This document shows positions 9,401-30,400 of a stretch of 64,000 bases of DNA, in pieces; within the stretch, counting starts at the first letter, position 1; every line of letters begins with the position of its first letter. The notes under the pieces are model-generated. The model ran no database searches. It saw nothing but the letters and a program-made list of their open reading frames with translations, and was not told the DNA's origin. The position numbers and the translations under genes were made by a program. Source of the DNA: Chrysemys picta bellii (taxonomy: Eukaryota > Chordata > Testudines > Emydidae); assembly GCF_011386835.1 (NCBI RefSeq), contig NC_088800.1, positions 54,713,439-54,777,438 of the forward strand, read 5' to 3'.

Positions 9401-12400
9401 GAAGGGACCTTAGGAGGTCATCTAATCCAACCCCCTGCTCAAAGCAGGACCAATCCCCAGACAGATTTTTGCCCCAGATCCCTAAATGGCCCCCTCCAGA
9501 ATTGAACTCTCAACCCTGGGTTTAGCAGACCAATGCTCAAACCACTGAGCTATCCCTCCCCCCTCCCAGTCCATTTGAATTTCATGCTAATTAGCTTCAG
9601 GGAAATTTATCTTTCATCTTTGCTATCATACAGTTTTTGTTTGTTTATTTTCGACATTTAAATTTGACATACTGAACATAAATACTTAAGGTGGGAGGAG
9701 GACATCAGCGATATAACAGTAACTAGTGTTTTCTGGGAGAAAGAAGCTTGGTGCTTCCAAGTACTATAGCCATCCAGTGTAAAAATCACTGGTACCATTT
9801 AAAACCTTGATTTCATTTTTTTCAGCAAATTAAAATATATTTTAAGAGTTCCAGCATATTACTTTTCTGTGTTAGCCCAAAGAACAGAATTATAGAATTT
9901 AGCGTTCTGAATATAGCTTTAGTATTTTCTCCACTTTGAGTAGCTCGTTAAATGTTGTGAGGCAATGCTGCCATCATACATGTGTACAAAACTCCCTTTG
10001 ATTTACGAGGTCAGTATTTTTTCTCAGATCTTATTGCCAGTTATCTAGTTTGTTTTTCCTTTATCGCTACCCAATTCATTTCTTTCTACACAATTAATTT
10101 ATTTAATAACTGATATTTTTGTTTTTAAATATTAGATGGCAATGTCTCCTTCCCGAATGCCTCAGCCACAAAACATGATGGGAGCACATTCCAGTACTAT
10201 GATGGGTCAGGCTCCTACCCAAAACCAGTTCCTCCCTCAGAATCAGTTCCCATCATCAAGTGGGGCTCTGAATGTGAACAATGTAAGCATGGGTCAGTCG
10301 ACAACCCAGACAGGAGTTTCACAGGTAGAATTCATTTTCTGAAATATGGATTATCATAGTCTAATTTAATGGGTGGCCACGCTCAGCCCCCAACAACAGA
10401 AGTTAATTTACGGTGTATGATTGTGCTATTTTCAGTGTTCACCCCATTGTATCTGAGTCATCCATATGCTCCTATTTTTTTTCTTTGTATGCAGACTTTA
10501 GTAGCTATTATTTTAAATTATGGACTGCAAAAAAGTGTGTAATCAAAGCAGCCCTCTTAGAATTATTTTTTAAACTAGTTACATCTGAATGGGAAACTGT
10601 TGTCTATCACCAGTTGTCTTCCATGTTACTACAGAAGTTCAGTCAAATTATTTGTAGCTGAACACTTCTGCATGTGGCTTTTTAAAAAATAAAAACATCC
10701 GCCCTCCTGGAGAAAGTCTTGAATCCATGATGGATAGAAAAACAGTATCCCTCAAAAAAATATTTATAAGGCAATATAAAAGCATTTTAACAATTTGACA
10801 TTTTACTACCTATAATTCATTCATATTTCTTTATATTGTTTTATTTAGATTTATACAAATACTTAAAAATACTTGTATGAAGATTTTAAATAGAAATCAG
10901 ATGAAGGCATATTAGCACGGTCTACTCTCCCTGATTCTCCCTCCACCCATTCTAGTTTGTCTGATGCAGCATTTAGTAAAATATATAGTATTAAAACATA
11001 TGCACATGCACCATGTTATTTATCTTGTACTATTTCAATTTTATAATGTTGCTTGACTTTGAAATGTGGATCCACAATCTTTTTGAATATCCAAAATAGT
11101 CAAGTCAGGGTAAAAACAATTACATTTTCAGGTGTATTGTGTATAGTAAACACAAGGGACACAATTCTGAGATGCCCTCCTGATCAATGTAGCTCAGTAG
11201 GTGCAGCCTAGGTTGTGGGGAGCTTTAAGCCACTTTGTGTCCTCTGAATCCTTGCCTCTACCCAGCCCGTGGCACAACGTAGCTCTTGAATGGCTGCCTA
11301 TGGGGAGTGCTATCTGGGTTCCATCTCCTTTATGCTAGTAGAACAATATAAAAGGAGCAAAAGCTATTGAAAATTATTGGTGATTTTATGTGGTCAGAAC
11401 CTGTGCATTTGAGATAGCAACCCTGTGTTTATTGTAAATAAATAAAATATTAAAAATATATGGTGATCTAAACTGCTACTCTTGTAAGACATTTAATGCT
11501 CTTAGAATGTCCAAGTAAATATGACTAAATTTTGGAGCAGCATTTTTGGAGTACATTAAGAACTCTCTTTTTATAGCAGGGGCAGGTTCCCAGTGCTGCT
11601 ATTCCGAACTCCATGAATATGCTAGGACCACAGAATGGTCAGCTATCATGTCCACCAGCGACCCAGCCACCTCTACATCAGACTGCACCTCCTGTATCCA
11701 ATGCAGCTGGCAAGCCACCTATCCAACACCAAACCCCACCTGGAATGACTCCTCCTCAGCCAGCAGCACCTACTCAGCCATCCACACCAGTCTCCTCTTC
11801 AGGACAGACTCCTACACCAACACCTGGCTCTGTTCCAAATGCAACACAGACACAGAGTACACCTACAGGACAAACTGCAGCACAGGCTCAAGTTACACCA
11901 CAACCTCAGACTCCAGTACAACCCCAGTCTGTGCCAACCCCACAACCATCTCAGCAACAGCCAACATCTGTGCAGGCACAACCTCCTGGCACTCCAGTAA
12001 GTATCAGCTAGTTTATTTGGTCCAAATGCAACTGAAACCTAAACATTCAACAATGAACTTTCCCCTGTATAGTACAGTGCCATAGAATTACAGATTGCAG
12101 AATCCTTATGCCATAGCAACAGTAGCTTCTGTTTTATCGTGGAAGATATATGTTAGAATAGGTATTTATTTATGTATTTTGATCCATATGCAAACAAAAT
12201 GCATTCATCCAAATGTTCTCAGCAGCCATGTTAGTTGTGATTTCAAATACTAGGATTAAAAATACTACAGAATGTTTCTACAGCTGTGCGTGGGAAGCTT
12301 GTACATAATCTGCCTGTGCTATGTTTGGCTCTAGTCGGGATCATTAGTCTTTCACCTTCATGATCATTAAATTCACACACCGTTTTTAAAGATGGGTAGA

Positions 12401-15400
12401 AAGAGACTGCATGGTAATCAGTGTGTACTATCCACCGTACAGTTGCTTTATCAACAGAAGATGCTAATGCATCAGATGATAAACTCATTCCTGACTTTAC
12501 TCTGTATAACTCGAGATCTGTGTTCTGGTATCCAGAGTTTAGTTTTAGTGAGTATCAGACCCAGGAGTGGTGGTATTTCAGATGATCCTTTTGTGTATAA
12601 TTTTGTACTATTCCTCTTAGCAAGACAAATTAATATTTCTATATATTTCCTCAATGTTCTGATTTTTGTACCTTTTTACATCAGCTATCCCAGGCAGCAG
12701 CTAGTATTGATAACAGAGTGCCCACCCCCGGCTCAGTTGCCAGTGCCGATATCAACTCCCAGCAACTGGGACCTGATGCACCAATGCTAGAAAGCAAACC
12801 AGAGATTAAAAATGAAGAAATTGAGCCAGAGCCTTGTGAAACACAAGTGGAACCTAAGACTGAGGTAAGTGAAATTCCTTCACAGTTAATTAGCGCAATA
12901 ATATATAGGATGAGTGTGAATCAGTGAGCCAAGCTGACAAGAGAAAATATTAGTTAATGGAAAACTCTGATTTTCACTCTGGTGGAAGCCCTATGTATCG
13001 TGCTTTATTGTGTATCAGGCTACTGACACTCCAAACTTATATAGTGTCTCAAACTACAAATTCTACGTGTAGTTTCATCTCATCTCTTCCTTTCTTAAGC
13101 TGGAGGAGGATTTACAAGGATCTTGCCAAGTGAAAGAAGAAATAGATGTGGCAGAGTCGAAACAGGAGCCAATGGAGGTAGAAGAAAAGAAACTTGATAT
13201 CAAGGTAGAACCTAAAGAGGAAGAGGACAGTGGCACTAATGGCACCACTTCACAATCTACATCACCATCTCAGCCCCGTAAAAAGAGTACGTATATAAAA
13301 ATGGGAGTCCTTGCTATAATTTTTTTTGGTTTTGTCTCCTGCAGTCTTTAAGCCAACCAGGAGGTCCCTCTGTTTGCGCGTATGCACTAACACCACAAAT
13401 GGGAGGCTGAAACAATGAGTTAATGTGCTAGCCTTTTTCCTCTTGGAAAGCAGTACTCTTCTATCTTTTCTTGGATCACAAATGAAAAGTAAGGTTTTGA
13501 TGTCATCCTGATTTCCACTTAACATTACTGTCAATGATAACATCAGTTTGGCTTTTTCACAATAACCAGTCTCTGTGCAGAAGGGCCAAAGCCAGGATAG
13601 TAAGGGATTGGTTTCAGTTCAGGACCGAGGTGAATTGTAGGGTAATTACGTAGGTAGGTGTTGTATGCACGTATCTGACTTTAGCCAGTGCTATTTCATG
13701 AGGACTGAATTCACTTAGAACGTTTTCCTACAGAGGTCCTCTAAGTCCTGTGAATTCTTTCCAGGTTCTGTTTTCACTTCATCCCTGCTGTCCAAGAACT
13801 CTTGTTGTGGTGACATCCTCCAGCCAGAAGATCATGTGGAAGTAGCTCCCTCCATAACCTCTCCTTGATTTAGTCAGAAGGATTATTGATGAATCACGGG
13901 ATACACTCCTTTCCCTCAAGAGGCTGTGTGCGCAGCGTCCATATTGTCATTAGCCCTTGTTGGCCTGAGAATTAGGGACTGAACTCAGTTCCTGAATTTA
14001 ATTTTTTTACAGTTAGACTGGTATACTGGCCCTAAAACTTTTAAAAGGAAAAATACCCAGTGCAGCTGCCTTGAGAGTGCCATCACTTTAAAAGTGTGCT
14101 GGCCCAAAGCCTGTTCCACAGAAGTTTGCATGATGGTGACCACCACTCTGATCAAGTCAGTCTACAGAATTAGTGTTTTGGATATGGTTAGTTTGAACAT
14201 AGATTGTTGGTACCTATCTGCTATATTTTCCTCTCTAGTTCAAAAGGAAAAAGTAGTACTATCGTGGCTAGCATCGACTTATTGAGCGGTGCTGTGCTAT
14301 CCCACGGTTCCCGCAGTCTCCAGTGCCCATTGGAATTCTGGGTTAAGCTCCCCAATGCCTGATGGGGCAAAAACATTGTCGTGGGTGGTTTGGGGTACAC
14401 GCCATCAGTCGCCCCTCCCTCCGTGAAAGCAACGGCAGACAATCATTTCGCGCCTTTTTTCCCTGGGTTACCTGTGCAGACACCATACCACGGCAAGCAT
14501 GGAGCCCACTCAGCTCACCGTCCCTGCTGCTGTTGTGGGCAAGTCTACTGTGGGGGCTGCTGTGATCCAAGTAGCCAATGCGCAATCATTGACGTTCTGT
14601 TATCAAGGGTAGTGACTCTGGGAAATGTGCGGGCCTTTTTAGATTGTAGGTGCATCATATTCCTGTCCTTTGTCGCTGGTGAAGAAATTTTGCAGCCATA
14701 CATTCCAGTCTGGTCGGCGCTGTAACATCCCATAGCACTTCTGTGGTTGACACATGTAACAGCTCCAGGGCTCTTGCTCTTTTGCTTTGGCTGAGGTACC
14801 TTGCCCTACCAGGACCTCCAAGCATTCGACACAGAAGCACCTGCGGCAGCTGGCATTGCTACACAGCAGCAGCTCCTTGCCTTTGCAGCAGATGGTGCAG
14901 TAGGACTGGTACCCGTCCTCGTCGTACATGTAGAAGAGCTCCAGGAATCGATCCCTGCAAGTCTGTCAAAGGCCCCCCTCAAACAGCGGGTGGAATGTGG
15001 CTGGGTTTTTTCTCCCGCATGATAAACAACTGTCTTCAAGGCTCCTGTTGTTGTTTGTGACTTCGGAAACCATTTGCTCTCTGCTCTGGTCCTCCTCCAC
15101 CCGCTCCTTGCTGTTGTTGCAGAAGTTAGTCTTTAGCCACTTGGCCGGGAGTTCTGAGAACATCTTCTCTGCCCGGCTCCTAGGAATCTCCAGGGCATGG
15201 TGTACAGCTCGTCGATAGGAGACCAGCTTATTAAACGTGGAGTGGTTGAAATGCTGCCTAAAAGCCATCAAACCCACCAGCTTGTCTGCTGAAACCTCGG
15301 AGAACTTCCCATCCCCAAACCATTTCACCCAGTGCATTCTGGAGATTGCCTGATGTTTGGACGTGACTCTGTAGGAGACGATGATTGCAGGCCACCAGGA

Positions 15401-18400
15401 GAAGCCCTTGATCTTCCCCAATTCCAAAATCTTTCCCATCCTGGTATTCCACCACTTTCCCTGCAACTCTGCTCTCCTGCTCCCCAGCGATGAGCTCGGG
15501 GGATACATTCTGGTCCTCCTGGGTGCTGCTGGCAGATGTGGTACTGCTGCTCTGGGGGGACTCCTTGGAATCCTCCTCAGTGAGGTCGATCAGGGGCACC
15601 TGGACAGACATGGCCATACTCCTCTTAGAGCACCGACTGGGAGCCAGAGACTCCAGGTCATTCTCTTCAAGTTTCATCTCATGGAGATTCAGTCCTGCCT
15701 GGAATATCATGTGAGCTGGAGACGTCTGCCTCAAGCTACTCTCCCAGCCGGCAGCACCACGCGGTCGCACCCTTACCCCTTGCTCACATGGCTCATGAAG
15801 CCTGGACAATAGTAAGGAGCAGTTCAGCTATAGGCTGAACAAGTTCAGAATGGTGGTTGAATGTGCCTTTGGACATTTAAAAGCTCGCTGGCGCTGTTTG
15901 CTGACTAGATCAGACCTCAGCGCAACCAAAATTCCCATTGTTATTGCTGCTTGCTGTGTGCTCCATAATATCTGTGAGAGTAAGGGGGAGACGTTTATGG
16001 CAGAGTGGGAGGTTGAGGCAAATCGCTTCGCATCCGATTTTGAGCAGCTAGACACCAGGGCAATTAGAAGAGCACAGCAAGGCGCGCTGCGCATCAGAGA
16101 GGCTTTGAAAACCAGTTTCATGGCTGGCCAGGCTTTGGTGTGACAGTTGTGTGTGTTTCTCCTTGAAGCAAACCCGCCCCGTTTGTTGATTTTAATCCCC
16201 TGTAAGCAAACCATCCTCCCCCCCCTTCGAAATAAAGTAACTATTGTTTTGAAACCATGCATTCTTTCTTTATTAATTTAGAAAAAAAAAAAAAGATAAC
16301 CGACAAGCTAGCCTGGGTGGGGTGGGGGAGGAGGGAAGGGCAAGGCCACATTGCTTATTGTAGCCACACACATAATCAAACTGTTTGAATGACAGCCTTC
16401 TGTTGCTTGGGTCATCCTCTGCAGTGGAGTGGCTGGGTGCACGGAGCCGCCTTTTCTCCCCCGCCTTCCTGGGCATCTGGGTGAGGAGGCTATGGAACCT
16501 GGGGAGGAGGGTAGGCGGTTATACAGTGGATGCAGCGGGGGGGTGTGCTCTTGTTGGCTTTCCTGCAGCTCCAACAGACGCTTCATCTTGTACGTTTGCT
16601 CCCCATTAGCCTCAGCATCGCGTCCTGCCTCCGCTCTTCGCGCTCACTTAATTCTTTCCTGGCCTCTGCTACTGAATGCCTCCATGCATTAAGCTGTGCC
16701 ATACCAGTGCGGTAGGACTGCATGAGCTCGGAAAACATGTCATCGCAAGTGCATTTTTTTCGCCTTCTAATCTGCGATAACCTCAGGGATGGAGATGTTT
16801 CTATGCTCTACAATTCTGGGGGGACTGCATGGTCACCTGTGCTGCTGAGTTCGCCACTCTGACCAAACAGGAAATTAAATTCAAAAGTTTCCGGGGCTTT
16901 TCCTGTGTACTTGGATAGTGCATGGGAGTTCAAAGTGCTGTCCAGAGCGGTCACAGTGGAGCACTCTGGCATAGCTCCCAGAGGCCAATACTATCGATTT
17001 GCATCTGCACTACCCCAAAGTCTATTTTAAGAGCCCTTTATGTCGACAGAATGGGGTTGGTTGTGTGGACGCAGATATTTTTACATTGACCTAACGTGGC
17101 TAAATTCAACCTAACCCCGTAGTGTAGACCAGGGCTAAGAAATAAAATAAGGATTTTTTTTTTTTTTTGAGTGATGGTCCCTATTGTATTCCTCTGAGGG
17201 TTATACACATGTGTCTCTGCTTCCACACCACATCCGCCACGGCCTGGAGCATTGTCCTTGCGACCAGTTTGCCTTTCTCCAAGATAGTCAGGAAGGAGGC
17301 ACGATTCTGTTGGGGGAGGCTTGTCTGCAAAGTCCGCCAACAAGCCATAAGTAAGCAAGTCATATTTAGCTAATATGAGGGAGCTGATGACACCACAGCA
17401 TCTGAGAATGATGAAGGGAATCACTCAGTTTCCGGCGGTGCCGGTGGAGCCAGGCTAAGCAGTTCAGCCTCCAACACTGGTTCTGAACACCTACTCGATG
17501 ACTGTCAAAGAAGGGTGATGGGCACTCCTCTCATGCTGAATGGGAAGGCTCTGAAGGTGTATACTGAGGCCAGGACACCCAATAGGGCCCAAAGGAGGAT
17601 CCTTCATTTGCTGTGGTGGGTCCCGAGGAGTGGGGTACCAGTGGCTCCTTTGCTAGGGAAAGGGAAGGTACTCTCACTGAGTCAGCAGAGCCTTTGGATA
17701 GTTGTATCAACAGTATGGGAGGGGTGGACCTGTGCTACATCCAAGTCTCTGATGCCAAGAAGTCAGAGCCTGGTTCTAATGGTGGCACCACGGGAACCAC
17801 ATGAGCTGGAAGAGAGCAGGCAGGAATACTGGGTGCATTTGTTGTTGATATGGGAGGCAAAGAGGCCTGTGGTTGGAGTCCTTTATCGGGTGAAGGACTA
17901 TGACTATGGCGTCGTGGAGTTCCCATTCAGGGTCAGCCATGAACTGCCTGCTCAGAGTCTACAATCACGTTCTGAGTCCCCAGAAGATAGGCCGCTGGCG
18001 ACAGGATTTTGTGGGCGATGCACCAATCCCACAGACTAATCGTTTCTGCACAAAGCACTAGCGATCGCATGCCCCTTTGTTTGTTGATGTAATAAACAGT
18101 TGCGGTGTTCTATAGAACAAGGTTTCTTTGCGTATGCGCCCCAAGTTTCTGCCAAAGGTCATATTTCACTTTTACCTTAATCAGACGATACATTTACCTG
18201 CTTTTCTTCCCGAAGCCTTGCGCCTTAGCGGAGGAGAGCGCCTTCACTCCCTCAACGTCTGCAGGGCCTTGGCTTTCTACCTGCAGAGAATGAGATCATT
18301 CAGGAAGTCTCCCTGACTATTTATCATTATAACAGAAAGGATTAAGGGATAGGCGATATCCACTCAGAGCATTAAGTAAGTTTTGGGGTGCGTTATGCTC

Positions 18401-21400
18401 TGCTATTGGTTATTGGGACTGTCTCCACCCCTTGGTATGAGCCCACTCCACAAGAGCGTAAGCATCAATTATATCCGTGCTTCAAGATACACTGCTTATG
18501 GACATACGTAGGGCGGCCACCTGGAGTTCGGTACATACTTTTGCTTCACATTACACCTTGGAACAAGATTCTGTGATGAATGCCTCATTCCACAGAGCTG
18601 TTGTCCAGTCATCAGTTCTGTTATCTCCTCACGCACCCCTCCTCATGACTAGGTACTGCTTGTTAATCACCCTCAATGGAATACAGTATGGACCATCACT
18701 CAGAAAAGAAGAGGTGATTACTTACCTGTAACTGCAGGTACTTAGAGTTGTATGGTTCCTATTTGTATTCCAGTCCCACCCTCCTTCCCTTATGCTGTGG
18801 ATCTCTCGTGAATTGTGGTGGTGAAGGAACTGAGGGCATGGTTGGTCCGCCCTGCCCTTTATCGCCGCCTCAGACAAAACCATGAGGTGGAGCAAGGGTG
18901 CATTCACGGACCAACGGACACTACTGCTTTCAAAATCTCCAGCTCCGGACATGTGGAGCATGTGTGTTACCCTCAGTGGAATATAGATAGGGACCACTCA
19001 TCTTGAAGAACCTCCAGTTACAGGTAAGTAACAGGTACTTACTGCCATGATTCTTCTTCAGTGGATTGTTGTCCACTTCTTCACGTGAACGCTGTTGCAG
19101 GCTCTGGTGTAGAAAAACCCATCCCTCAAGCCAAAAAAACACCACCTAATTATGCTCAAAAAAGCAGCAATAAAAGTTAAATGTGAAAGTTTTAAGCCTG
19201 TTTTGTAGAGAGAACCTCATGGCTTTGTGGAAGTAGGGAAGCTAATTCAGAGTATGTGTGATCCTCCATGGAGGCCAAACGGAACTGGCAGGGTTTCAAG
19301 AGTGGCCAAGTTAAGCCCTATCTCAGTGATTGATATATCTTCTATGGACTGAAGGCAGGATGACAAGAAGGAAAAGCCCACTGTAGTAAAAAGAACAGGA
19401 GTACTTGTGGCACCTTAGAGACTAACAGATTTATTAGAGCATAAGCTTTCGTGGACTACAGCCCACTTCTTCGGATGCATACAGAGTGGAATAAATATTG
19501 AGGAGATATATATACACACATACAGAGAGCATAAACAGGTGGGAGTTGTCTTACCAACTCTGAGAGGCCAATTAAGTAAGAGAAAAAAAACTTTTGAAGT
19601 GATAATCAAGATAGCCCAGTACAGACAGTTTGATAAGAAGTGTGAGAATACTTACAAGGGGAGATAGATTCAATGTTTGTAATGGCTCAGCCATTCCCAG
19701 TCCTTATTCAATCCTTTGTTGATTGTGTCTAGTTTGCATATCAATTCCAGCTCAGCAGTCTCTCGTTGGAGTCTGTTTTTGAAGTTTTTCTGTTGTAATA
19801 TAGCCACCCGCAGGTCTGTCATTGAATGGCCAGACAGGTTAAAGTGTTCTCCCACTGGTTTTTGAGTATTATGATTCCTGATGTCCGATTTGTGTCCATT
19901 AATTCTTTTGCGTAGAGACTGTCCGGTTTGGCCAATGTACATGGCAGAGGGGCATTGCTGGCACATGATGGCATATATCACATTGGTAGATGTGCAGGTG
20001 AACGAGCCCCTGATGGTATGGCTGATGTGATTAGGTCCTATGATGATGTCACTTGAATAGATATGTGGACAGAGTTGGCATCGGGCTTTGTTACAAGGAT
20101 AGGTTCCTGGGTCAGTGGTTTTGTTCAGTGATGTGTGGTTGCTGGTGAGTATTTGCTTTAGGTTGGGGGGTTGTCTGTAAGCGAGGACAGGTCTGTCTCC
20201 CAAGATCTGTGAGAGTAAAGGATCATCTTTCAGGATAGGTTGTAGATCTCTGATGATGCGCTGGAGAGGTTTTAGTTGGGGGCTGAAGGTGACAGCTAGT
20301 GGTGTTCTGTTATTTTCTTTGTTGGGCCTGTCTTGTAGGAGGTGACTTCTGGGTACTCGTCTGGCTCTGTCAATCTGTTTTTTCACTTCAGCAGGTGGGT
20401 ATTGTAGTTTTAAGAATGCTTGACAGAGATCTTGTAGGTGCTTGTCTCTATCTGAGGGACTGGAGCAAATGCGGTTATATCTTAGAGCTTGGCTGTAGAC
20501 AATGGATCGTTTGGTGTGTCCTGGGTGGAAGCTGGAGGCATGTAGGTAAGTGTAGCGGTCAGTAGGTTTCCGGTATAGGGTGGTATTTATGTGACCATCA
20601 CTTATTAGCACAGTAGTGTCCAGGAAATGGACCGCTTGTGTGGATTGATCTAGGCTGAGGTTGATGGTGGGATGGAAATTATTGAAATCATGGTGAAATT
20701 CCTCAAGGGCTTCTTTTCCATGGGTCCAGATGATGAAGATGTCATCAATGTAGCGCAAGTAGAGTAGGGGCGTTAGGGGACGAGAGCTAAGGAAGCGTTG
20801 TTCTAAGTCAGCCATAAAAATGTTGGCATATTGCGGGGCCATGCGGGTACCCATAGCAGTGCCGCTGACTTGAAGGTATATCTTGTCCCCAAATGTGAAA
20901 TAGTTGTGGATGAGGACAAAATCACAAAGTTCAGCCACCAGGTTAGCTGTGACATTATCGGGGATACTGTTCCTGATAGCTTGTAGTCCATCTTTGTGTG
21001 GAATATTGGTGTAGAGGGCTTCTACGTCCATAGTGGCCAGGATGGTGTTTTCTGGAAGATCACTGATGGATTGTAGTTTCCTCAGGAAGTCAGTGGTGTC
21101 TCGAAGATAGCTGGGAGTGCTGGTAGCGTAGGGTCTGAGGAGAGTGTCCACATAACCAGACAAGCCTGATGTTAGGGTGCCAATGCCTGAGATGATGCGG
21201 CATCCAGGATTTCCAGGTTTATGGATCTTGGGTAGCAAATAGAATACCCCTGGTCGGGGTTCTAGGCATGTGTCTGTACAGATTTGTTCCTGTGCTTTGT
21301 CAGGGAGTTTCTTGAGCAGATGGTGTAGTTTCTTTAGGTAATCCTCAGTGGGATCAGAGGATAATGGCCTGTAGAATGTGGCGTTAGAGAGCTGTCTAGC

Positions 21401-27400: not shown

Positions 27401-30400
27401 TGAAAAAAACACATTAGGAATAATGAACCTAGTTGTTTGGAGATGAGAAATTATTTGATAATGACAAAATTCTGTCTTAAAGTATATAGAACAGAGCAGT
27501 TTTAATATCTGAGGGAAGTTCTTTTCTTTATATTTTAACTGTGTTTGGGGTTTTTGTTTCTTTTAAAACAGTCTTTAAACCTGAAGAGCTGCGCCAGGCT
27601 CTCATGCCTACCCTTGAAGCATTGTACCGGCAGGACCCAGAGTCCCTTCCTTTCAGACAGCCTGTGGATCCTCAGCTCCTAGGGATTCCAGTGAGTTAAC
27701 ATTAAAAGCCTTCGTGGTATATGTATATATGCATGTATGATATCTCATAATTCTTATTTTTGTAAACTCATTTGCCTAATATCTTTGTGCTTGTTCAAGT
27801 TGTATATGGCCATGGGAACATCAGCTGTGTGCCCTTAAAGTTTTCTCTCCTTGAGTTCCAGTTAAGAGGTAAGAATGAATGTCTGAATTTCCATGGGAAC
27901 CAGAATGTACAAGTTGCTCTTCTTCGAGTAGTGACCATATGGGTGCTCCACTTTAGGTGCAAATGGGCTTCTCAAGCCCCTTCATTGGAGACGTTCCGTT
28001 AGCAGTGTCTGTTTGGCCCCCACCTGCACTCTATACAACCTTGGGCCACCTATCAAGGATATATAGGGCTGCACAGGTGAACCATCCTCAGTTCCTTCTT
28101 CGCTGCCTTGACCTGAGATGGAGCTCTAGCATGTCTGCCTCGTCCATTCTTCAGCGTGTTCTACAGTTGTTCTTTTTGTAAGTTTAGTGTTTCTGATTAG
28201 TGTTACTTGCTATAGTATAGAATTGGTTAGATGATAGTGAGAGGATTGACTTTTTCCTCTCCCTTTTTCAAACACTACCTCTCTTGTCAGGAGGCTATCC
28301 CAGTCAGCAACGGTCACTCTTAGTGCATCTGCTGCTTGGGAGAGTTCCGTATCTAGCAAAAGTGTAACTTTAGCTTAGCTCTCAAATCTAGAGTATGGAA
28401 GAATTGAGAGATCAAACGGAGACTTCTGATGATGGAGCATTCCCTCCCTTCCACCTGCTATAAAGTCATGTCAGGGGACACATTCCCCCCTCCCCTAGTA
28501 CATATGTTTCCAGACAGATCCAGTGCCCTTCCGACCTCAGCCCAGGTCTCCCCTAAGAAGGGGAAGACTTTGGAGGACTCAGGGAAAGCTCCAAAGAAGA
28601 GAAGCTCAGTCTCCCACCACAAGAAGCCAGCTCCCAAAGGCCCCAATTGCATGCTAAGTCTGTGGTGCTGGAGGTCTTGACCTCTTGGCTTGGTACTGCG
28701 GAGGCAAAAGGTTCTTCCTCGAGTACTGGTGGAGCCGGGAGATTCTAGAGCACTTTGGAGAAGCATGGCTCTGGCAGGCCCCCAGTACCATCTGTGAAGG
28801 ACAGGGAGGTGAAGTCTAGGATGCACACTCCTTTAGAATGGCAGTGTCTGTCAGACTTACCATTTCATCAGTACTGGACTAATGAAAGCACCAGACACTT
28901 TCAGCCTCGGCACCAACGTGTTCCAAATCGACAGTACCATCCACCTCAGCTATTGCACAGTATCGATCCACTCAGTACCACAGGCATTTACTCCAGGGAC
29001 TTGTCTCTTTTAGATAAGCCAGAGTCTCCACTACTTCTGGGTGCCAAACAACTTGGTACCAAGATCCTGGGTACCAGATTAAAATTGTTTCCCAGTACCA
29101 CAAGGCTCTCCACCTTTTTCTGCTGATGCCCCACCATTGAAGGAGATAGGGGAGATGGACAATTCTCCTCAATCAGTGTAGTGTTCCACTCAGCATCCAT
29201 ACAGGAACCTGTATCCTCATCCATGACAGGGAAGGTGGGATTAGTCCTGGGCACCATCCACTCTCTGGTATGGGGCCCCCCAGTTACTGTACTGGGATCC
29301 TTGGGTTGTGTCAGCAGCAAGTTGCCAGACCTCTGGCTCTGTTGCACTAGGGGCGGGGAGTAGGGTTGCACAGTTCCTTCTTCTCATGTTGGGGGTTCAG
29401 TAGACATTTAAAGAACAGGAGACTAGGGCTGATAAAGGAGGCTGCCCATAAACTCCTGTTTTATCCTCCTATCTGGCCAAAGCAGTCATGTCTCCACCAC
29501 CACTAATAGCCAACAATTTTGAACAATTCAGGGACCTTGTGAAAGAGGGTGGCTGTCACCCTTCAGATACCTCTTGAGGTCAAAGACTCGCAACACAAGC
29601 TGCTGGACTATCCATTAATTAAGCGCTCCTGGATCCAACAAAGACTGTGACACACACTCTTGCCACTATCCCAACAACTTGTAATTTGGTGGGTGAGAAA
29701 TACTATGTTGCTCCTAGAGACCCAGAATATTTGTTTTTGGACCCTACACCTAATTCCCTGGTGGTGGATACTGTAAATAAGTGGGCAAACAGCATTACTC
29801 GAGATCTACCCCCTATGAAAAAAGCCAGAAGAAGTTAGACTTTTTTGGTTGACATCTTTTTTGAGATGGGGCGACCAGAACTCCATACGCTATTCAAAGT
29901 GTGGGCATACCATGAATTTCTGTTGTGGCATTATATTTTCTGTCTTCGTATTCTTTTCCTAATGGTTCCTAACATTGTTAGCTATTTTGACTGCCACTGC
30001 ACATTGAGTGGATGTTTTCAGAGAACTATCCAAAGACTCCAAGATCTCTTTCTTGAGGGGTAACAGCTAATTTAGATCCCATCATTTTGTATGTATAGTA
30101 GAGATTAAGTGGAGAATCCATAGGAAGAATGCTCGAAGAAGAACATGTTGGTTACCCTGTGGAGTAACTGTGGTTCTTTGAGGTGTGTCCCCCTATCGGT
30201 GCTCCACTACCCACCCTTCATCCCCTCTGCTTCGGACTGTTCTTTGTTGAACATTTGGATAGAGAAGGAACAGAGGGCCGTTTGCCTATGCAGCCCTATG
30301 TACTCTGTGTGTGGCACACGGTTGTGTAGTGTGCATGTGCAGGCTGGACAGACACTGCAAAATCTCTGATCAATGGATCAGGAGGTGCATGCGCACCTGA

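Follow-up and report, generated by a model that had tools for sequence, protein, structure and literature searches.

Host gene sequence carried by transposable elements has been described in several systems. The closest known of them is a hAT element of fungi (Mycosphaerellaceae), which carries an intronless histone H3 sequence, read as the capture of a transcript or retrocopy, and which has been amplified (PMC6710886). The Harbinger element Turmoil-1 of C. elegans carries rsp-2 sequence (PMC2572040), and Pack-TYPE transposons of plants, Harbinger types included, carry gene fragments (PMC8903248, PMC8616336). In bats, the Helitron HelibatN3 captured and amplified a fragment of NUBPL (PMC4778049). 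As for DNA methyltransferases, a Dnmt3 gene became part of retrotransposons in dinoflagellates and in a charophyte (PMC5890265), and a DNMT gene of Zymoseptoria tritici was amplified, which is thought to have started from a captured transcript (PMC6710886). Here we describe a stretch of 64,000 nucleotides of Chrysemys picta bellii (contig NC_088800.1, positions 54,713,439 to 54,777,438; hereafter the window), which holds a decayed PIF/Harbinger DNA transposon with an antisense, intronless piece of the host gene DNMT3B, likely captured once and likely copied to many sites, an overall reading that we consider quite probable.

The locus shares with the fungal hAT a cut-and-paste element, an intronless host coding sequence, probable amplification and decay by transitions, but the fungal insert is a nearly complete coding sequence decaying through repeat-induced point mutation (RIP), whereas the turtle Harbinger holds an internal antisense fragment of DNMT3B. 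Turmoil-1 belongs to the same superfamily and is likewise an animal element with host coding sequence inside; its fragment, however, lies in the inverted repeats and resembles two exons with the intron between them, and the element is described from a single species, with one complete copy and eight fragments. Pack-TYPE elements are also non-autonomous DNA transposons with gene fragments, but they are found in plants and are proposed to take up chromosomal DNA through tandem insertion and re-mobilisation, whereas the window copy has one recognisable terminus and a probably RNA-derived insert. HelibatN3, like the element proposed here, is a vertebrate DNA transposon amplifying a captured host gene fragment, yet it is a rolling-circle element and its fragment consists of a promoter, the first six codons and a splice donor. 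The dinoflagellate and charophyte elements are retrotransposons that kept the methyltransferase domain, whereas the window piece has no catalytic domain and holds the reader half in antisense orientation. In Zymoseptoria a DNA methyltransferase gene was also multiplied in a genome, but it spread by telomere exchange and all copies, including the original, were inactivated by RIP, whereas complete DNMT3B is predicted in turtles. The preliminary description of this DNA had called capture of this kind undescribed in vertebrate Harbingers. The titles and abstract openings listed by searches of an open-access library agree, presenting neither a DNMT3B-Harbinger chimera nor gene capture by a vertebrate Harbinger, and excerpts of PMC2911107, PMC13317346 and PMC4054807 hold no such case. 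Transduplication itself is already known from the nematode Harbinger and the fungal hAT, and, as far as these sources go, the vertebrate Harbinger with captured host complementary DNA (cDNA) is the new part.

The element comprises the following features, with positions counted in the window.
14260 to 14632, plus strand: remnant of the left Harbinger arm (the start is approximate and taken from the preliminary description).
14646 to 15774, minus strand: captured intronless DNMT3B piece with the end of the N-terminal region, the PWWP domain, a 55-residue gap and the ADD domain (ends approximate to a few bases).
14639 to 14968, minus strand: ADD part with the PHD finger and the C-terminal end ...QEYDAPTI, followed by a stop (PF21255, E 1.1e-25).
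15146 to 15170, minus strand: join at which 55 DNMT3B residues are missing (alignment of the copies with 16 parental proteins).
15225 to 15425, minus strand: PWWP domain, in which loss of the LVW codons near 15414-15418 shifts the frame (PF00855, E 4.2e-10).
15414 to 15770, minus strand: N-terminal DNMT3B region (VRPRGAAGWESSLRQ ... GKDFGIGE; phmmer and map to the Chelydra protein P0118).
15775 to 17136, plus strand: right arm of the Harbinger, containing both the C-terminal DDE transposase part and the right terminal motif (PF13359; matches of gene models P0051 and P0088).
17118 to 17134, minus strand: right terminal motif CCCTGGTCTACACTACG, which we take to be a Harbinger terminus (one match in the window at up to 3 mismatches, 0.07 expected).

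The antisense DNMT3B piece is about 1.13 kb long and is flanked by both arms. Searches against PDB with phmmer identified 14966-15589 and 14639-14965 (both minus strand) as DNMT3B, with best E values of 4.3e-79 and 1.7e-57, and the minus-strand frame 15258-15827 gave DNMT3A first (2.1e-6) and DNMT3B more weakly (4.8e-4). Pfam recognised in the piece a PWWP domain and both fingers of the DNMT3 ADD domain, the GATA-like and the PHD finger. Residues 79-511 of Chelydra DNMT3B (P0118) correspond to 15770-14642 on the minus strand, and in a control 31 of the 32 matches of the 16 parental proteins lay inside the piece, the remaining one overhanging to 15821. Neither the linker skipped at the join nor the catalytic domain matched anything in the window up to E 1, and with the first 78 residues of DNMT3B just two chance-level matches appeared there (E 0.69). 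Thus, an intronless DNMT3B piece within a Harbinger, as first proposed, is confirmed by PDB, by Pfam and by the five apparent exon edges considered below. The piece does cover PWWP and ADD, but it starts N-terminal to PWWP; it is antisense and has the announced length of about 1.1 kb, but is not continuous cDNA, the 55 residues between the two domains being missing. The window copy is dead, with an inactivating stop (TGA at 14966-14968) at the position of a Cys found in all 16 parents, in addition to the frameshift in PWWP.

The element is recognised as PIF/Harbinger by its transposase of the DDE_Tnp_4 type, of which only the last third of the domain is present. The match (PF13359, E 1.3e-11) lies at 15799-16143 on the plus strand and covers profile positions 102-158 of 158; in a longer frame it begins at position 100 and runs to the domain end (158). 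The first 99 profile positions were found by Pfam in neither arm. Nearly two thirds of the domain are thus missing at the site now occupied by the DNMT3B piece, which takes the place of transposase sequence. Transposase sequence had been said to stop near 14640 and to resume near 15770, a reading that the 99 absent positions correct. The left arm holds VGKSTVGAAVIQVAN, which we read, by assumption, as transposase; 14287-14433 (minus strand) is similar to the end of P0051, a Terrapene model (47%, 53 columns, E 2.9e-6), and the three plus-strand frames of 14200-14645 had no Pfam match up to E 1. The transposase frame had no PDB match up to E 1. Harbinger elements also encode a second, Myb-like protein; the minus-strand frame 16583-16807 gives only matches below the Pfam cut-offs.

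Five apparent exon edges are passed without an intron by the window piece, as in a processed pseudogene. These edges were inferred from reading frames running out into introns, not from annotated introns, in 37 proteins from unannotated sequence sources. DNMT3B similarity begins at QDG in 18 of them and ends at SEVS in 13; it starts just before VSADKL in 3 and ends at HALEV in 6, and the same three proteins of the 37 begin at DSCLSC and end at QTCR, the remainder being long or having other end points. The piece therefore likely lost its introns through an RNA stage, as far as such frames can tell. Its first residue, the V of VRPRG, coincides with an apparent exon start, which is how it appears because P0123, a parental model of Terrapene, and P0071, a copy of Chelonoidis, join different sequence directly before VRPRG. 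At the other end there is neither a 3' untranslated region (UTR) nor a poly(A) tail, the piece ending in coding sequence (...EYDAPTI) followed by five A, and among 20 of the 26 direct-repeat families of 11000-20000 none borders the piece. A circular RNA template, suggested by the 5' end at an apparent exon start, was dropped, because, to judge by the exon borders of DNMT3A, the captured 3' end does not lie at an exon end.

Related copies are present in the gene models of turtles. Protein searches with the PWWP/ADD frame (104 proteins), with P0051 (80 proteins) and with full-length DNMT3B (the 120 best of 1598) yielded at least 14 DNMT3B-like models from at least 11 named turtle species: Caretta (P0001, P0069), Mauremys mutica (P0002), Trachemys (P0003, P0004), Platysternon (P0008, P0053), Terrapene (P0051), Chelonia (P0063), Chelonoidis (P0071), Gopherus (P0088), Emys (P0105), Eretmochelys (P0111) and Chrysemys (P0165). 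P0050, also from Chrysemys, has the same starting residues as P0165, was taken as the same locus and is not counted. Complete DNMT3B proteins are predicted separately in turtles, so the short models are not the parental genes; 16 of the 120 proteins (14 from turtles, 2 from birds) served as parents. In the alignment, a 55-residue linker (GTAGESLEEQ...PEHC or its counterpart) is present in all 16 parents. It is deleted in the window and in all nine models that cover the join, from eight species (P0001, P0002, P0003, P0008, P0063, P0069, P0071, P0105 and P0165), and in none of the parents. The joins of P0063 and P0071 were read from their sequences, the aligner having cut P0063 before the join and misplaced P0071. 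At the join the window reads FSELPAKW and most other copies FPEPPAKR, where turtle parents have FPGTAG...HCPPAKR; P0004, P0051 and P0088 depart from the DNMT3B frame at this point. The 3' end is also shared: all three models that reach it (P0008, P0069 and P0105) finish one residue past PK, where the parents continue, and the window piece finishes at the same point, one residue past PT. The end of P0105, which is labelled partial, is the least sure, and P0165 departs from the frame a few residues before it.

Two models carry the transposon itself. The first 45 residues of P0051 match 16503-16372 (minus strand, 78%, E 6e-17) and the first 47 residues of P0088 match 16451-16311 (minus strand, 72%, E 2.7e-17). 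Harbinger sequence thus lies on both sides of DNMT3B in P0051 and on one side in P0088, in the order and orientation of the window, and P0051, by matching both window arms, has host coding sequence between sequences of one element, as transduplication implies. In all, ten named species have the 55-residue deletion (eight) or Harbinger flanks (Terrapene, Gopherus); Eretmochelys P0111 has neither and was placed by similarity and by a smaller four-residue gap only. Two differing models occur in each of Trachemys, Platysternon and Caretta, in the first two genera on contigs of unequal size. Several copies sharing both junctions had been anticipated for a mobile chimera, and a single copy was to speak against it. 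The former holds at the protein level, by the deletion (9/9), the 3' end (3/3) and the arms in two genera; the latter is not borne out, and a single-copy pseudogene lying in a Harbinger is ruled out by the shared deletion and ends in other models.

Some of these models are unusual as annotations. The C-terminal part of P0063 (Chelonia mydas) matches CNGB3 (E 4.3e-48), the model being joined to an unrelated gene, and P0111 (Eretmochelys imbricata) carries an SRCR domain joined to the DNMT3B-like piece; these fusions are artefacts of annotation or else transposon pieces that became exons. P0050 and P0165 (Chrysemys picta) have a common Arg/Pro/Ala-rich N-terminus with different entry points into the DNMT3B piece, which may represent real transcripts from a GC-rich promoter. 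P0008 and P0053 (Platysternon megacephalum) are misleadingly named 'monoglyceride lipase' and 'protein Wnt-4-like' in databases. A number of turtle 'DNMT3B-like' models, some fused to other genes, are likely transposon pieces, which should serve as a warning.

The copies occur in Testudinoidea and Chelonioidea, both within Durocryptodira. The lineages of Caretta, Chelydra and Emys were looked up, and the other genera were placed by their usual classification. Among the matches listed, no short copy from soft-shelled turtles, side-necked turtles or crocodiles was named, which is a weak absence. The capture would likely have been a single event, drawing on a spliced, RNA-derived copy of DNMT3B, in an ancestor of the hard-shelled turtles. 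The likeliest route, we infer, would be a repair error at a break or gap within a Harbinger copy, for which a DNMT3B cDNA or an existing retrocopy served as template, because no poly(A) and no target duplication are seen, the ends lie in coding sequence and element sequence is replaced. Such a patch would fit better than an insertion made by a long interspersed nuclear element (LINE). The chimera would then likely have been copied to many sites by transposase from intact relatives.

Most copies appear to have decayed since. At columns invariant in the 14 turtle parents, 194 of 2349 cells are changed across the copies, after masking of the misaligned stretches of P0008, P0165, P0051, P0111 and, partly, P0071 and P0088. 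Arg is changed in 37 of 177 cells, compared with 157 of 2172 for other residues, and 32 of the 37 Arg changes go to C, H, W or Q. This excess at Arg would point to lost CpG, the pattern of methylated DNA in neutral decay. Moreover, 131 of 187 changes (the 194 minus 7 left out) are explicable as one C>T or G>A step, as are 77 of 130 distinct ones; the former count includes co-inherited changes repeatedly, and both are given without a mutational null. From these residues, most copies are probably methylated, dying DNA in neutral decay, without protein function. The Emys orbicularis model P0105, labelled partial as said, has an open frame of 379 residues over the entire captured piece, and all 15 ADD cysteines are kept in it and in P0069. 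AlphaFold2 gave this open Emys copy a mean pLDDT (predicted local distance difference test) of 37.7 with a 17-row alignment, which supports no claim of folding.

Several observations weigh against a single capture spread by Harbinger. The right terminal motif has no left partner within 3 mismatches across the 64-kb window, so the window copy is without a recognisable left end. Harbinger sequence is missing from 12 of the 14 models, gene models being prone to drop non-coding flanks; P0053 and P0111 stop short of the diagnostic join; the junctions are compared as ends of predicted proteins, not as DNA, and the models may have been patched by annotators. The piece is less depleted in CpG than the window (observed/expected 0.38 vs 0.25), which by itself lends decay no support. 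The copies form one group in one tree, with support of 35/74, and 3 changes are needed in the 28-row tree; two tree attempts leave the copies unplaced, and five clade tests reject no placement. Finally, four residues (ESDK or ERDR, alignment columns 41-44) are missing from all six copies aligned there, the window included, and from both chelydrid parents, and are present in all nine testudinoid and all three other turtle parents, a pattern in conflict with simple descent. P0051 reads NDLESLAP without the four residues, is aligned differently and stands outside the six. An M at column 21 is likewise common to five of five copies and, among turtle parents, to chelydrids only. Explanations of the gap would include an old polymorphism, use of an alternative splice site, and horizontal transfer.

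Horizontal transfer would mean that a Harbinger in the lineage of snapping and sea turtles made the capture and then crossed into the ancestral lines of pond turtles and tortoises. It would account for the four-residue gap and the M shared with chelydrid DNMT3B, and for copies in both Chelonioidea and Testudinoidea; however, the parents examined include no sea turtle DNMT3B, the gap has the two other possible sources just named and the clade tests reject no placement, and we regard this course as unlikely. A short DNMT3B isoform might instead have been copied to many sites by LINE enzymes, one or a few retrocopies landing in Harbingers which did not spread them. The piece is indeed intronless, begins where an exon seems to begin, which an alternative transcript might do too, and lacks a Harbinger flank in the 12 models mentioned. 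But P0051 and P0088, from two genera, have arm sequence of one and the same Harbinger, ordered alike, the piece begins and ends within coding sequence, lacking a 3' UTR and any poly(A) longer than five A, and it replaces transposase sequence, which makes LINE copying quite improbable. Multiplication of a single chimera through segmental duplications, each species holding orthologous copies, is suggested by the pairs P0004/P0051 and P0071/P0088, which group in the tree at 99/94 and 94/73 and look orthologous. It sits badly with the two differing models on contigs of unequal size in Trachemys and Platysternon and with the fusion of models to unrelated genes, a CNGB3-like one in Chelonia and one for an SRCR protein in Eretmochelys, and is scarcely credible.

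A single capture copied by Harbinger would be a clear case of a vertebrate cut-and-paste transposon spreading an RNA-derived piece of a host gene across a large clade, and intronless capture by DNA transposons would become testable from many junctions. It also raises the question of whether antisense intronic pieces of a silencing gene affect the expression of that gene, in hosts whose sex determination is often temperature-dependent. The window piece lies in an intron of CREBBP, antisense to CREBBP and to the transposase remnant, and the CREBBP pre-mRNA would thus contain DNMT3B antisense sequence; any effect of such RNA, or of small RNAs as first proposed, on DNMT3B or on methylation would be conjectural. 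The piece might even shield Harbinger: intronic copies would give antisense DNMT3B RNA, and open-frame copies such as that of Emys would make a PWWP-ADD reader lacking the catalytic domain, which would occupy the chromatin sites of DNMT3B and weaken the de novo methylation that would silence the element. We hold this last idea to be very doubtful.

The host gene of the intron was recognised with tblastn, using stretches of human CREBBP and EP300 as queries. CREBBP stretches follow in order on the plus strand of the window from 13100 to 56228, at 74-100% identity save one piece at 50%, and the element sits between the exons at 13100-13285 and 27565-27690, the former lying upstream of it:
13100 to 13285, plus strand: upstream CREBBP exon (tblastn, human CREBBP).

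An 18-base pattern of the terminus had no match in viral contigs. Its lone match, in a bacterial metagenome-assembled genome, is considered chance: neither blastn with the window (up to E 1e-5) nor tblastn with the copies (up to 1e-3) gave a match there, and the sequence is rich in long open frames. To the right, immediately next to the Harbinger, come two long inverted repeats (82%), at 17160-17209/18661-18710 and 18718-18772/18977-19031. A 221-codon open frame (17374-18039), which has no Pfam match, lies between the arms of the first. The two repeats adjoining the Harbinger suggest further mobile elements.

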